Assembly: GCF_030695525.1 (NCBI RefSeq)
Contig: NZ_JAUYSS010000032.1
Coordinates: 124,001 to 188,000, forward strand
From: Daejeonella sp.
GTDB taxonomy: Bacteria; Bacteroidota; Bacteroidia; Sphingobacteriales; Sphingobacteriaceae
Direction: 5' to 3'
DNA length: 64,000 nt
A program made the position numbers and the translations under genes. The notes under the pieces are model-generated. The model worked only from the letters and a program-made list of their open reading frames with translations. It did not search any database and was not told the DNA's origin. This document shows, piece by piece, positions 34,736-40,027 of the stretch (its first letter is position 1; each line of letters starts with the position of its first letter).

Positions 34736-35851
34736 ATGAAGATAGAGACCATAGCTATCCATGCAGGCAATAAAATAGATGGAAACACAGGGGCTGCTAT
34801 TCAGCCCATTACTTTATCGTCAACTTTTGAACGGGGCGACGATGGCGGATATCCCGGAGGATTCATTTATTCAAGAATAGATAATCCCAACAGAAAATCA
34901 CTCGAAAATGTAGTCGCTAAACTTGAGGGTGCTGAAGATGCTGCCGCCTTTTCATCCGGAAATGCCGCAGGTGCTGCAGTTTTTCAGGCATTAGGTGCAG
35001 GTGCACATATCATTGCTCCTGCTGATATGTACCATGGACTGCGGAATCAATTATTACAGGTTTTTGAAGGAATTATTGAAGTTAGTTTTATTGATCTGGC
35101 CAATATTAATGCGATAAATAATGCTATTAAACAAAATACCCGTCTGATTTGGGTAGAAAGCCCTTCAAATCCGCTATTAAAGATCAGTGATCTGAAAGCG
35201 ATCAGTGAACTGGCTAAAGCCAGGGGTATTCTTGTAGCATGTGATAATACTTTCAGTACTCCGGTATTCCAAAAACCACTGGATTTAGGCTGTGATTTGG
35301 TTATGCATTCATCCACTAAATATTTTGGAGGTCATAGTGATGTAATCGGAGGAGTTTTGGCTTGCAAAAAAAATGATGAACTATGGAAGAAAATTAAGAA
35401 TGTGCAGGTATTATCCGGGGCTGTCCCCTCGCCTTTTGATTGCTATTTAACAGTCAGGGGAATTAAAACGCTTCCTTATCGCATGCGCGGACATGCACAC
35501 AATGCAGCAAAGGTTGCTGCGTTTTTAGATTCCCATAATCAGGTTGAAAAAGTCTTCTATCCGGGTTTAAAAGAACATCCTGGTCATGAAATTGCGAAAA
35601 GCCAAATGAGTGATTATGGTGGAATGGTATCATTTCTGGTAAAAGGTGGTGCCGATGAAGCCAGGAAATTTGTCAACTCGGTAAAAATCTTTACACAAGC
35701 AACTAGTCTGGGAGGTGTTGAGAGTCTGATTGAGCACCGTGCATCCATTGAAGGTCCGGGTACAAAAACTCCTCAAAATCTGATTCGTATTTCTGTTGGT
35801 TTGGAGAATTCTGAGGATCTGATTCAGGATCTGGATCAGGCATTGGGATAA
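34736..35851 (+). CDS. Trans-sulfuration PLP enzyme (cystathionine gamma-synthase/lyase type)
   Basis: A 371-residue Cys/Met-metabolism PLP enzyme: AIQPITLSSTFER, GFIYSRIDNPNR, AAFSSGNAAGAAVFQ, the PLP-lysine segment HSSTKYFGGHSDVIGG and the C-terminal SLGGVESLIEHRA. It belongs to the synthase/lyase branch rather than the longer sulfhydrylase. Whether it makes cystathionine from O-acetylhomoserine or cleaves it cannot be settled by eye. It precedes, on the same strand, the SAM-riboswitch controlled met genes, separated by 500 bases with an independent promoter. Confidence 0.9.
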   Translation: MKIETIAIHAGNKIDGNTGAAIQPITLSSTFERGDDGGYPGGFIYSRIDNPNRKSLENVVAKLEGAEDAAAFSSGNAAGAAVFQALGAGAHIIAPADMYHGLRNQLLQVFEGIIEVSFIDLANINAINNAIKQNTRLIWVESPSNPLLKISDLKAISELAKARGILVACDNTFSTPVFQKPLDLGCDLVMHSSTKYFGGHSDVIGGVLACKKNDELWKKIKNVQVLSGAVPSPFDCYLTVRGIKTLPYRMRGHAHNAAKVAAFLDSHNQVEKVFYPGLKEHPGHEIAKSQMSDYGGMVSFLVKGGADEARKFVNSVKIFTQATSLGGVESLIEHRASIEGPGTKTPQNLIRISVGLENSEDLIQDLDQALG

Positions 35852-35906
35852 ACAATAAAAATAATACATTGAAAATCAATACATTACAAAAACAATAAAA
35901 ATTTAA

Positions 35907-35939
35907 TTTGGTTTAAACATATTCATACTACTATATTTG
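35907..35939 (+). promoter_or_regulatory. Promoter of the SAM-riboswitch met operon
   Basis: TTTG (35907-35910), 21 bases, then TATATTTG (35932-35939): a perfect match in both elements to the Bacteroidota consensus TTTG-N19-21-TAnnTTTG. Transcription should begin near 35945, about 45 bases before the riboswitch aptamer. Confidence 0.8.
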
Positions 35940-35990
35940 AAACAATATTTGGTAGCAATACCAATCTGTCTTCAATAAATTTACTTTATT

Positions 35991-36100
35991 GATTTATACA
36001 GAAGTGGCGAGAGATCAGGCTCTTTGACCCACTGACAACCCCCCGATCGGTTTCGGGGAAGGTGCCAATTCCTGTCCCGAAAGGGAAAAATAAATTTATA
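35991..36100 (+). promoter_or_regulatory. SAM-I (S-box) riboswitch
   Basis: Consensus blocks of the S-box aptamer are present in order: GTGGCGAGAGATCAGGCTC, GACCCACTGACAACC, a P3 hairpin (CCCCGA/TCGGGG), the core AAGGTGCCAATTCC, a P4 hairpin closed by a GAAA loop (TCCCGAAAGGGA), and P1 formed by TTTAT near 35993 and ATAAA near 36090. It senses S-adenosylmethionine and lowers expression of the downstream methionine genes when SAM is high. A short ORF with a Cys/Met-rich end begins 7 bases after P1. Confidence 0.93.
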
Positions 36101-36106
36101 TTGAAA

Positions 36107-36235
36107 ATGAAAAAAGACCAATCTGCAGTTCCTGTATTTCCGAAACCGGAACTTAAAATCCCATCTCAAGTTACTTTTTATTCTGCATCATCAAGGTATT
36201 GTTGTATGTGTATGAATTTAAATCTTTGTTGTTAA
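36107..36235 (+). CDS. Cys/Met-rich leader peptide ORF (candidate attenuator)
   Basis: An ATG at 36107 opens a 42-codon frame ending TAA at 36233-36235. The N-terminal part is MKKDQSAVPVFPKPELK; the last 13 residues are RYCCMCMNLNLCC, i.e. five Cys and two Met, the final two codons before the stop both being TGT. It lies between a SAM-I riboswitch and metY. A tail of the pathway's end-product amino acids is the hallmark of attenuation leader peptides, as with His or Trp leaders and the Cys leaders of actinobacterial sulfur operons. The hairpin at 36231-36254 overlaps the stop codon. No other function is apparent. Confidence 0.7.
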   Translation: MKKDQSAVPVFPKPELKIPSQVTFYSASSRYCCMCMNLNLCC

Positions 36236-36269
36236 ATCCTTTTCAAAGGTTAACTGCCTTATATTAAGG
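36231..36269 (+). promoter_or_regulatory. Attenuator-like segment pairs after the Cys/Met leader
   Basis: Four short segments can pair in alternative ways: 1 CCTTT (36238-36242), 2 AAAGG (36245-36249), 3 CCTTA (36257-36261) and 4 TAAGG (36265-36269). Pairs 1-2 (extended by GTTAA/TTAAC, 36231-36235/36250-36254) and 3-4 exclude pair 2-3. The 1-2 stem begins inside the last Cys codon and takes in the stop codon. Stems are only 4-5 bp and no strong U-tract follows 3-4, so transcription termination is uncertain. Confidence 0.4.
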
Positions 36270-36339
36270 TAAAACAACAATTTTAGATATTTTTAAATCT
36301 CTTTTATAATATTTTAATTTAGTTAATAATTAAACCTAA

Positions 36340-37656
<1,317 letters not shown>

Positions 37657-37682
37657 TAATAAGGTTATAAATTGATAAAAAA

Positions 37683-37717
37683 GACCTCCCCGATCTCTTA
37701 TAAAGATTGGAGAGGTC
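37683..37717 (+). promoter_or_regulatory. Intercistronic hairpin before metX
   Basis: GACCTCCCCGATCT (37683-37696) pairs with AGATTGGAGAGGTC (37704-37717) over 14 positions with one mismatch and one G-U, loop of 7. It ends 8 bases before the metX ATG and buries GGAGAGG, the only Shine-Dalgarno-like run nearby. On the minus strand it is followed by a T-run, so it could stop antisense transcription. A role in metX translation or mRNA processing is plausible. Confidence 0.6.
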
Positions 37718-37725
37718 AAAATAAT

Positions 37726-38787
37726 ATGAATAAAGAAGTTATTTATAAACACAAAAAGCCATTTCTGCTTGAAAGTGGCCAAAAGTTAAAGGATCTTGAG
37801 ATCGCTTATCACACTTTTGGTGCTTTAAATGCTAAAAAGGATAATGTGATTTGGGTTTGTCATGCTCTGACAGCAAATTCGGACGTTTTCGACTGGTGGA
37901 AAGGACTTTTTGGTGATAATTGTCTGTTTAATCCAAAGGAGCACTATATTGTTTGTGCAAATGTAATTGGCTCACATTACGGCAGCACTAGCCCTCTGAG
38001 CATTAACAGTGCAACCGGACTGCCCTATTTTCTTTCCTTCCCTGATTTTACAGTTCGTGATCTTGCAGCAGCACATAAGCTTTTGGCTGATCATCTTGGC
38101 CTGCCGAAAATTGGATTATTAATTGGGGGTTCATTGGGCGGACAGCAGGCAATGGAATGGGCTATTTTGGAGCCACAAAGAATTAAAAAACTGGTTTTAA
38201 TCGCTACAAATGCCCAGCATTCAGCCTGGGGAATTGCCTTTAATGAAAGTCAGCGGCTGGCAATTACTGCAGACCGTACTTTTTATGCACAATCTCCGGA
38301 TGGTGGTAAAACGGGACTTAAAGTAGCGCGCAGTTTTGCTTTACTGTCGTACCGGACTTATGGGACCTATGCCACGACTCAAATGGAAGTAAATCCTGAT
38401 AAGCTAAGTGATTTTAAGGCATCATCCTATCAGAACTATCAGGGCGAGAAACTGGTGAACCGTTTTAATGCCTACAGCTACTGGTATCTGACCAAGGCTA
38501 TGGACAGTCATCATGTGGGTCGTAAAAGAAAATCGGTCGAAGATGCACTAAAGTTAATTCAGGCAAAAACATTGGTTATTGGCATTAAGAACGATGTTCT
38601 TTTCCCAATAGAAGAACAACAGTTTCTGGCAAACCAAATCCCGAATGCCCGTTTTTCAGAGCTAAATTCATTCTATGGTCATGACGGATTTTTAGTAGAA
38701 ACCGAAATTTTAACACAGGAAATAGGGAATTTTTTCAGGGCTGCTGACACTGATAATAGTGTAATAAATATGCATAAAATAGCATAA
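37726..38787 (+). CDS. metX: Homoserine O-acetyltransferase
   Basis: A 353-residue alpha/beta hydrolase-fold acyltransferase that makes O-acetylhomoserine, the substrate of MetY. The nucleophile elbow GGSLGGQQAMEW, the NVIGSHYGSTSP block and the C-terminal YGHDGFLVE with the catalytic His are seen. I chose ATG 37726 (MNKEVIYKHKKPF): the frame is open upstream to 37672, but that stretch is the hairpin 37683-37717 and translates to nonsense. Operon order metY-metX-hom. Confidence 0.95.
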   Translation: MNKEVIYKHKKPFLLESGQKLKDLEIAYHTFGALNAKKDNVIWVCHALTANSDVFDWWKGLFGDNCLFNPKEHYIVCANVIGSHYGSTSPLSINSATGLPYFLSFPDFTVRDLAAAHKLLADHLGLPKIGLLIGGSLGGQQAMEWAILEPQRIKKLVLIATNAQHSAWGIAFNESQRLAITADRTFYAQSPDGGKTGLKVARSFALLSYRTYGTYATTQMEVNPDKLSDFKASSYQNYQGEKLVNRFNAYSYWYLTKAMDSHHVGRKRKSVEDALKLIQAKTLVIGIKNDVLFPIEEQQFLANQIPNARFSELNSFYGHDGFLVETEILTQEIGNFFRAADTDNSVINMHKIA

Positions 38788-38794
38788 TAAAAAT

Positions 38795-40027
38795 ATGAGT
38801 AAAAGACTGACCATTGGATTATTTGGCTTTGGCGTAGTTGGCCAGGGTTTACATGATATTATAAGTACAAAGGATCTCAATATTGAGATCAAAACAATTG
38901 CGATCAAAAATCCTGAGAAGGAACGTATTCTACCGGATCACCTATTTACTACTAATCAGGATGATATTCTGAATGATTCGGACATTAATACTGTCATAGA
39001 ATTAATAAATGATGCAGATGCAGCTTATGAAATTGTTAGCAGGGCTTTAAAAAGCGGGAAAAATGTAGTTTCCGCGAATAAGAAGATGATCGCGGAACAT
39101 CTCGAAGAGTTGGTCCATATTCAAGAAAAGTACAATGTATCGCTCTTATATGAAGGAGCAGTATGCGGAAGTATTCCAATCATTCGAAATCTGGAAGAGT
39201 ACTATGACAATGAATTACTTCATTCCATCAGCGGTATTTTTAACGGATCTTCGAATTTTATTCTTTCAAAAATTGCCAATGAAGGCCTGGAATATTCAGA
39301 GGCCTTAAAACAGGCTCAGGAACTGGGTTTTGCTGAAAAGGATCCTATTCTTGATGTAGGTGGTTATGATGCCAAGTACAAGCTTGTTATTGCAGCAGCC
39401 CATGCCTATGGAGTTTTTGTAAAGCCTGAGGAAGTATTAAATATCGGTATTCAGAATTTTTCAGCCGCAGATCTCCATTTTGCTCAGGAACATCAGTTAA
39501 AGATTAAACTTGTTCCAACAGCAAAGAAACTTGACGATAAGGAGCTTGCCTTATATGTTATACCTAAGCTTGTTCCTAAAAGTGATTTCCTTTATAATGT
39601 TGAGAATGAATACAATGCGGTATCTGTAAAGGCTGCATTCGCAGACCAGCAATTATTTTATGGAAAAGGTGCCGGAGGCCATCCAACCGGGTCTGCCGTT
39701 TTATCAGATGTTGCTGCTTTACGTTATGATTATCGCTATGAGTACAAAAAATACCATCATGATAAGAAATTAAGGCTCCAAAATGATCATATCATTCCAG
39801 TGTACATACGGTACAATAATGAAAATTTGATCAAGGATATTCATTTTGAGTTTATAGCAGAACAGCACAAAAGTATTGAACTTAATTATGTGTTAGGTGG
39901 TGTAAAAATCAGTGAATTAATTGCTAAAAAACAAGATATACTGAATGATAGTGCATTTTTAGCTCAGGCTGGTGCATTAACTGAAAAATTTGAGGAATTA
40001 AAAAGGATAAAGCTTGAAAAAGCTTAA
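38795..40027 (+). CDS. hom: Homoserine dehydrogenase
   Basis: A 410-residue enzyme reducing aspartate semialdehyde to homoserine, the branch point to Met and Thr. NAD-binding GLFGFGVVGQGL, the ANKKMIAEH, GAVCGSIPIIRNLEEYYDN and NGSSNFILSKI segments, and the catalytic-lysine region DPILDVGGYDAKYKL fit the family. A short C-terminal ACT-like region may be present. It lies 7 bases after metX, so homoserine supply is under the same SAM/leader control. Terminator at 40047-40084. Confidence 0.94.
   Translation: MSKRLTIGLFGFGVVGQGLHDIISTKDLNIEIKTIAIKNPEKERILPDHLFTTNQDDILNDSDINTVIELINDADAAYEIVSRALKSGKNVVSANKKMIAEHLEELVHIQEKYNVSLLYEGAVCGSIPIIRNLEEYYDNELLHSISGIFNGSSNFILSKIANEGLEYSEALKQAQELGFAEKDPILDVGGYDAKYKLVIAAAHAYGVFVKPEEVLNIGIQNFSAADLHFAQEHQLKIKLVPTAKKLDDKELALYVIPKLVPKSDFLYNVENEYNAVSVKAAFADQQLFYGKGAGGHPTGSAVLSDVAALRYDYRYEYKKYHHDKKLRLQNDHIIPVYIRYNNENLIKDIHFEFIAEQHKSIELNYVLGGVKISELIAKKQDILNDSAFLAQAGALTEKFEELKRIKLEKA

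Follow-up and report, generated by a model that had tools for sequence, protein, structure and literature searches.

Architecture of the locus

We analysed a window of 64,000 nucleotides (nt) from Daejeonella sp. (contig NZ_JAUYSS010000032.1, positions 124,001 to 188,000 of the forward strand), in which a short open reading frame (ORF) lies between a SAM-I riboswitch and metY and ends in a cluster of cysteine and methionine codons. A leader peptide of this kind, associated with SAM-I switches ahead of metY or metX, is real and conserved. From the layout of the elements we consider it rather likely that they form a composite attenuator, that is, a SAM-I aptamer with a translated leader ORF directly behind it. 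The features of the locus are listed below; positions of the form +n are counted from the first base after the Rfam 3' end of the aptamer.

35907..35939, + strand: putative Bacteroidota-type promoter TTTGG...TATATTTG (pattern scan)
35991..36096, + strand: SAM-I (S-box) riboswitch aptamer (RF00162, 65.1 bits, E 7e-13; gathering cut-off 44.4)
36107..36235, + strand: leader ORF MKKDQSAVPVFPKPELKIPSQVTFYSASSRYCCMCMNLNLCC, 42 codons plus the stop codon TAA, with the ATG at +11, 10 nt after the aptamer
36194..36232, + strand: Cys/Met codon cluster RYCCMCMNLNLCC, the proposed stalling region (from the translation)
36226..36280, + strand: candidate stem of the last Cys codons and stop, UUGUUGUU (36226-36233), with AACAACAA (36273-36280), around AAGG/CCUU (read from the sequence)
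36236..36351, + strand: post-leader spacer of 116 nt with 14 C and 7 G and small hairpins CCTTTTCAAAGG (36238-36249) and CCTTATATTAAGG (36257-36269)
36352..37656, + strand: metY, O-acetylhomoserine sulfhydrylase / cysteine synthase family (TIGR01326, 690 bits, cut-off 495)
37672..38787, + strand: metX-like homoserine O-acetyltransferase, starting at TTG 37672 or ATG 37726 (TIGR01392, 340.6 bits, below the cut-off of 500)
38795..40027, + strand: hom, homoserine dehydrogenase (NF004976, above cut-off)

Judged by its covariance-model score the aptamer is a member of the SAM-I family, and it is the sole Rfam match at gathering score within the window. An earlier sequence-only reading had placed a SAM-I riboswitch upstream of the ORF and metY-metX-hom downstream of it. 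The Rfam match and the profile matches to TIGR01326 and NF004976 agree with this, the metX-like match staying below its cut-off. The translation likewise agrees with its account of the 42-codon ORF, whose tail holds five Cys and two Met within 13 residues, with tandem TGT codons and then the stop. The gap between aptamer and ORF, given there as 7 bases, had to be corrected to 10 nt, counted from the Rfam 3' end up to the ATG. TIGR01326 is annotated as O-acetylhomoserine aminocarboxypropyltransferase / cysteine synthase, so cysteine would be a metabolically reasonable signal at this locus.

The promoter label is based on TTG/TAnnTTTG, which we take to be the consensus of Bacteroidota promoters; the pattern TTG-N17-23-TAnnTTTG matches the 64 kb six times on the + strand and three times on the - strand. 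A sigma-70-type scan of 35850-36400 gave 6 sites with 3.2 expected and was uninformative. A metB-like gene (cystathionine gamma-synthase/lyase-like, 34736-35851) lies shortly before the riboswitch on the same strand. The words UUGUUGUU and AACAACAA of the candidate stem also occur in genomes G104 (L038) and G109 (L037). On inspection by eye, the Cys codons might instead pair with GCAAC of the aptamer. A plain fold of 35991-36180 failed to recover the aptamer; the mean unpaired probabilities of 0.71-0.78 that it gave near the leader start are no test of gating.

Conservation of the leader ORF

In the window's genus, 20 genomes were searched and contained 36 SAM-I aptamers. All 17 aptamers upstream of metY (16) or metX (1) were followed by a short ORF that starts at +5 to +11 and carries a C-terminal Cys/Met cluster, with tails such as CCMCM..CC, CCCIC, CCCCR, CMCMPCWYCC and FCMRWTCRY. 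None of the 18 metH aptamers had such an ORF; one further aptamer, below threshold and near a contig end, belongs to neither count.

Among named species we used the best 80 metY loci of a longer list from a MetY protein scan. They span Pedobacter, Mucilaginibacter, Sphingobacterium, Hymenobacter, Pontibacter, Rufibacter, Chryseolinea and Saprospirales. SAM-I was present at 73 of these 80 loci; at 69 of the 73 an ATG ORF of 18-75 codons starts at +4 to +16, and at 52 of the 73 the leader has at least three Cys within its last 16 residues. No Cys-run ORF was seen at the seven metY loci that have no SAM-I, three of them with at most 119 nt of upstream DNA. Examples of tails are CICMCCCC (Mucilaginibacter oryzae), RMCCCCACCC (Hymenobacter qilianensis), CICCCCCCCCC in a metagenome-assembled genome (MAG) of Microscillaceae and CCCCCCC in a Cytophagales MAG.

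For a class-wide sample the criterion was fixed beforehand as an ATG ORF that starts at +4 to +16 and has three or more Cys among its final 16 residues (a Cys-tail leader in what follows). We then searched 158 genomes and examined 141 aptamers, leaving out the window's own genome and G021 (4 aptamers, already seen) as well as three sub-threshold matches. Cys-tail leaders were found after 9 of 18 metY and 1 of 5 metX aptamers, after none of the 13 metB and 90 metH aptamers, and after 1 of 15 others. When any Cys-tail ORF between aptamer and gene is counted, the numbers are 11/18 for metY, 1/5 for metX, 0/13 for metB, 0/90 for metH and 4/15 for the others. The full metY/metX set of the class includes paralogs; at a metY identity of at least 60%, 9 of 15 have a Cys-tail leader. 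L255 (start at +3, tail CCCCCC) and L168 (CCCR) have clear Cys tails, though outside the strict window.

A Pedobacter-like genus provided a closer view: the leader is present at 30 of 30 fetched metY loci, its tail mostly CMCCC. These 30 were taken from 42 close metY matches, 3 of 45 genomes had no match, and SAM-I was recognised there by its core motif rather than by Rfam. The exact sequence TAYTGYTGYATGTGYATG occurs in 4 of 399 genomes of the family, G126 and G170 among them.

A Cys-rich short ORF in so many lineages would also be expected if its product were a functional microprotein that binds metal, sulfide or redox partners and is cotranscribed with metY by happenstance. We regard this as highly improbable. 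The head and the Cys spacing vary, with longest Cys runs of 1 to 9, and the ORF is tied to SAM-I before metY or metX and absent before metH of the genus. The window ORF has no Pfam or NCBIfam match, and an NCBIfam scan of 13 leaders returned no significant match and one weak one (E 0.023).

The Cys/Met tail and the coding signal

To rate the Cys tails against chance we used 100 non-redundant metY/metX leaders. Near-duplicates had been removed (110 to 100), one upstream L079 aptamer was dropped, and the window's genus contributes 14 of its 17. An ORF is present in 87 of these leaders and a Cys tail in 69. In 200 dinucleotide-shuffled sets the mean was 0.91 Cys-tail leaders and the maximum 5. 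The sequence-only reading had called the Cys cluster unlikely by chance, and these counts bear it out; a chance origin is ruled out by the shuffles together with the fresh class-wide sample.

Within the 87 ORFs, Cys makes up 30.0% of the tails and 0.9% of the heads, and Met 9.0% and 0.5%. A (TGY)n run and a leader ATG occur together in 56 leaders, and in 55 of them the longest run lies in the ATG frame. In 38 of 69 leaders no residue separates the last Cys from the stop, and the Cys codons are mixed (245 TGT, 149 TGC). Of the 69 scored leaders, 54 have their start codon at +8 to +11, the range of +4 to +16 being set by the criterion. Over lengths of 25-45 codons in the Pedobacter-like leaders, frame 0 is open in 30/30, frame 1 in 0/30 and frame 2 in 5/30. 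The short leader ORF thus has, near its end, the clustered codons for an amino acid of the pathway that characterise an attenuator. In the homologous leaders that we compared, the ORF and its Cys/Met tail recur and the N-terminal part drifts: going by these alignments, frame and tail are kept and the peptide sequence of the head is not. The leader-peptide reading thereby withstands the refutation that the sequence-only reading had named for it, a lack of conservation of the ORF or its tail.

The post-leader spacer and the search for terminators

Between the leader stop and the gene lie 138 nt at the median (quartiles 117 and 199). Folding after the leader is stronger than in shuffled sequences (mean z -1.29, standard error 0.20, n=69), and pairing between tail and spacer lies slightly above shuffles (mean z -0.60, standard error 0.16, n=69). 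Leaders of the Pedobacter-like genus have hairpins that overlap their Cys codons as well as hairpins behind the stop. In these hairpins, drawn by hand on the very alignment that was scored for covariation, 27 cells are changed on both sides, 20 of them in the last hairpin, against 7.8 in shuffles (0/500). Sterner measures gave 8 pairs with two-sided change against 4.7 (7/500) and 20 further pair types against 17.2 (45/500). None of these post-leader hairpins has a U-tract. After the leader stop, L302-L331 carry a conserved double hairpin CUUCC...GGAAGGUCCCG...CGGGAUACG, also without a U-tract.

Such structures could be the sole means by which the ribosome acts. With the same leader peptide, mutually exclusive hairpins might hide or expose the metY start or form an unusual terminator, Rho not being involved. 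The folding and tail-spacer pairing scores and the conserved, covarying hairpins of the Pedobacter-like genus speak for this. However, the hairpins do not amount to a proven alternative fold, we found no conserved pairing that extends to the metY start, the spacer is long and C-rich, and the structures vary between genera. We consider this explanation unlikely.

The region is rich in C and poor in G: C exceeds G after the leader in 64 of 69 metY/metX leaders compared with 31 of 86 metH leaders. Within the same loci this holds for 46 of 50 post-leader regions compared with 41 of 71 gaps before other genes (p 3e-5).

We searched for terminator-like sites with a heuristic of our own. At the Daejeonella locus it gave no such site anywhere from the aptamer to metY, and a separate scan of 35850-36400 gave none either. 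In the class-wide sample, a terminator-like hairpin follows at a distance of at most 130 nt after 13/13 metB, 53/90 metH, 7/15 other, 0/5 metX and 1/18 metY aptamers. In the named set the count is 4 of 70 metY aptamers, 4 of the 74 having been dropped because more than 700 nt separate them from metY. Anywhere before the gene, such sites occur in 2/18 class metY, 7/70 named and 3/17 genus leaders. Most of these leaders are therefore without the intrinsic terminator with U-tract of a classical ribosome-mediated attenuator.

Proposed mechanism

Based on this anatomy we propose the following outline for the composite attenuator, which we consider likely. In the first step, helix P1 of the aptamer bound to S-adenosylmethionine (SAM) would block initiation, since the leader start (+4 to +16) follows it at a distance of only a few nt; an excess of SAM would then silence the leader. 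The concentration of start codons at +8 to +11 suggests that P1 is near enough for this. At low SAM the leader would be translated, and uncharged Cys-tRNA (transfer RNA) would stall the ribosome on the Cys/Met codons beside the stop, as their codon content suggests; uncharged Met-tRNA would probably have the same effect. In the last and weakest step, the position of the ribosome may decide whether RNA polymerase passes through the untranslated spacer into metY. The simplest route would be Rho-dependent termination combined with refolding of the RNA. The excess of C over G after the leader and the covarying hairpin of the Pedobacter-like genus speak for the composite attenuator.

Because many related bacteria have this arrangement ahead of the same gene, the leader is probably a further sensor, one for sulfur amino acids that adds to the SAM sensor. 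The comparisons show that the ORF is conserved in frame, tail and start position and goes with metY/metX switches. That it is translated, that ribosomes stall on it and sense tRNA charging, that SAM gates it, that Rho takes part and in which direction metY responds are what we infer from the sequence. We also consider, tentatively, a more elaborate version: a three-input device, widespread in Bacteroidota, in which SAM would act on initiation and charged Cys-tRNA and Met-tRNA on elongation, giving metY a gate that uses Rho in place of a terminator and requires both low SAM and low sulfur amino acids. Within this three-input version, the word CGA-AUG-YGN of lineages with RMR tails (see below) would be a further, undescribed pausing signal.

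Observations at odds with the model

Several findings do not sit well with the composite attenuator and have to be weighed against it. The first concerns variant tails. Thirty-one of the 100 leaders lack the Cys tail as defined, among them Sphingobacterium-type and Algoriphagus-like leaders; in 13 the set window contains no ORF, and some of these 13 are paralogs below 60% identity. Named Sphingobacterium leaders end in RMR, as most do, or in MRMRMH...C and have few Cys, and Algoriphagus leaders have no cluster. The exception among Sphingobacterium is a MAG that carries the label S. thalpophilum (L039): its leader has a Cys tail, and its metY is 97% identical to that of the window. Accordingly, the dual input of SAM and Cys/Met suggested by the sequence-only reading stands in part: Cys and Met are both enriched in the tails, but most Sphingobacterium as well as Algoriphagus keep the place of the ORF without the Cys cluster. 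It is partly supported by the anatomy, namely an ORF that starts at +4 to +16 and ends in Cys/Met codons. Tails of the type RMR or SMRMRMH...C at the same place were seen in L067, L068, L071, L080, L084 and L144 (Sphingobacterium-type) and in L076, L077 and L082. Such a tail may perhaps serve the sensing of Met or pausing on CGA.

The second concerns codon choice. Where Arg stands directly before Met in a tail, 28 of 30 codons for it are CGA; in ORFs of 200 or more codons the count is 8 of 42 (Fisher p 2e-10). These longer ORFs come from 22 loci, 19 of them shared with the tail set. CGA tails, mostly with CGA-AUG-YGN, occur in L045, L051, L058, L060, L061, L063, L066-L068, L071, L072, L075, L076, L080, L101, L106, L108, L110, L117, L144, L192 and L238. 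Furthermore, the Cys codons of the Pedobacter-like genus are nearly invariant at third positions. The CGA bias and this near-invariance point to a constraint at the level of RNA or codon speed that is superimposed on the composite attenuator and goes beyond it.

Taken to the extreme, the UGY repeats would act as RNA only, by pairing or by binding a protein, and the open frame would be incidental. The nearly fixed Cys codons lie within a hairpin, the proportion of synonymous differences (pS) in the Pedobacter-like leaders is 0.144 in codons 35-40 and 0.307 in the head, and the CGA-AUG bias points the same way. Nevertheless, the in-frame TGY runs, the stop right after the last Cys, the mixture of TGT and TGC and the frame kept open in all 30 Pedobacter-like leaders contradict such a reading, which we think has very little chance of being right.

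The coding signal of the composite attenuator itself is also limited. The ratio of nonsynonymous to synonymous differences (pN/pS) of the head is 0.80 in the 22 of 30 Pedobacter-like leaders of equal length, and the other frames gave 1.15 and 0.77. Amino-acid constraint in the heads is little, and coding is therefore argued from frame and tail; dN/dS (the ratio of the nonsynonymous to the synonymous rate) as a proof of coding was discarded as uninformative.

A third group of findings concerns terminators. In families that have a metY switch, terminator-like sites were found at 4/4 metB, 5/17 metH and 1/16 metY/metX aptamers, and in the window's genus at 0/18 metH and 1/17 metY/metX aptamers. 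Since the metH switches of the same lineages are mostly without a terminator, its lack is not specific to metY, and the class-wide contrast is confounded by lineage. The idea that the leader replaces the terminator is weakened by these same metH counts, which also make the composite attenuator and its three-input version less likely than the class-wide contrast alone would suggest. Genus metH switches with neither leader ORF nor terminator-like site are L001, L011-L014, L016-L025, L029, L335 and L336.

This bears on the possibility that riboswitch and leader are independent modules, the leader adding Cys/Met sensing only and SAM acting without a gate on leader initiation. The genus metH switches, without ORF and without terminator-like site, imply that another SAM-I output exists there. 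In addition, L162 and L230 have the order SAM-I, terminator-like hairpin, Cys leader. The tight spacing of the leader starts would be unneeded under independence, though, and we find this arrangement doubtful.

Two further points complete the case against the composite attenuator. The excess of C over G in the spacer is suggestive: it is compatible with a Rho site and no proof of one. Upstream of PF01507 (cysH/cysD) loci in Sphingobacteriaceae, Cys-tail ORFs were at background level (1/30).

Relation to known systems

Terminator-type SAM-I (S-box) switches are known; they share the aptamer family and have a terminator-like hairpin after the aptamer, with no leader ORF right behind it, like the 13 metB aptamers and 53 of the 90 metH aptamers of the class-wide sample. 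The mgtA leader of Enterobacteria combines a Mg-responsive RNA with proline codons in MgtL. It is also an RNA sensor with leader codons in one 5' leader, for other ligands and another amino acid.

Seliverstov et al. 2005 (PMC1262725) described Cys leader peptides at actinobacterial cys operons and at Bifidobacterium cbs and proposed a role for Rho. Those leaders resemble the present ones in the run of Cys codons near the stop, the position upstream of sulfur genes and the lack of a conserved intrinsic terminator, all of which we found here. They differ in belonging to another phylum and, as far as the consulted part of that paper goes, in having no riboswitch upstream; the Met enrichment and metY are features of our leaders.

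In Rhodobacterales, uORFC-8-2 before cysS (PMC8632094) is an upstream ORF (uORF) with tandem Cys codons and proposed tRNA-Cys sensing. Unlike the metY leader, it has a terminator stem and U run at its end, and the sections consulted describe no riboswitch. The B12 riboswitch leader of ppe2 in M. tuberculosis (PMC11260477) likewise has a riboswitch followed by a translated uORF that affects the downstream gene. In contrast to metY its ligand is B12, and no Cys/Met codon run is mentioned in the portion consulted. A heading of that article names termination-reinitiation, whereas the gap between leader and gene here has a median of 138 nt. By position (54/69 at +8 to +11), the start of the metY leader could be gated by its riboswitch in the manner of ppe2. 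For Flavobacterium psychrophilum, clues for leader-peptide attenuation at amino-acid operons have been given (PMC9723704); the metY leader is unnamed in the part consulted.

A SAM-I riboswitch and a leader peptide are each known as means of regulation; what is new in the element is their combination. We found no description of a Cys leader behind a SAM-I switch in the open-access literature, which is weak evidence because subscription journals lay mostly outside the scope of the search. The output stage of a textbook SAM-I riboswitch may here be a translated leader that reads a second and a third signal. If this is true, riboswitch and ribosome-mediated attenuation are joined in one simple element. 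The arrangement occurs in named strains of Pedobacter, Mucilaginibacter, Hymenobacter and Pontibacter, and it draws attention to a large class of short ORFs without significant NCBIfam or Pfam match (Pfam: window ORF only).

Cys leaders at other genes

A general Cys regulon in Sphingobacteriaceae is unsupported, given the background count at PF01507 loci and the finding that, of the 12 TGYTGYTGYTAA sites in the genome of the window, none forms the end of an ATG ORF with more than 8 codons. Elsewhere, Cys leaders stand behind two further SAM-I aptamers, the genes there being named by eye. The first 240 nt after the aptamer of L162 contain a terminator-like hairpin and a leader ending in RMCMELCCSS, followed by a TonB-receptor-like gene. 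In L230, the first 300 nt contain a terminator-like hairpin and a leader ending in AAACCCCQKFAACCCKC, followed by cysH-/cysD-like genes. Cys leaders are also present in L217 and L234.
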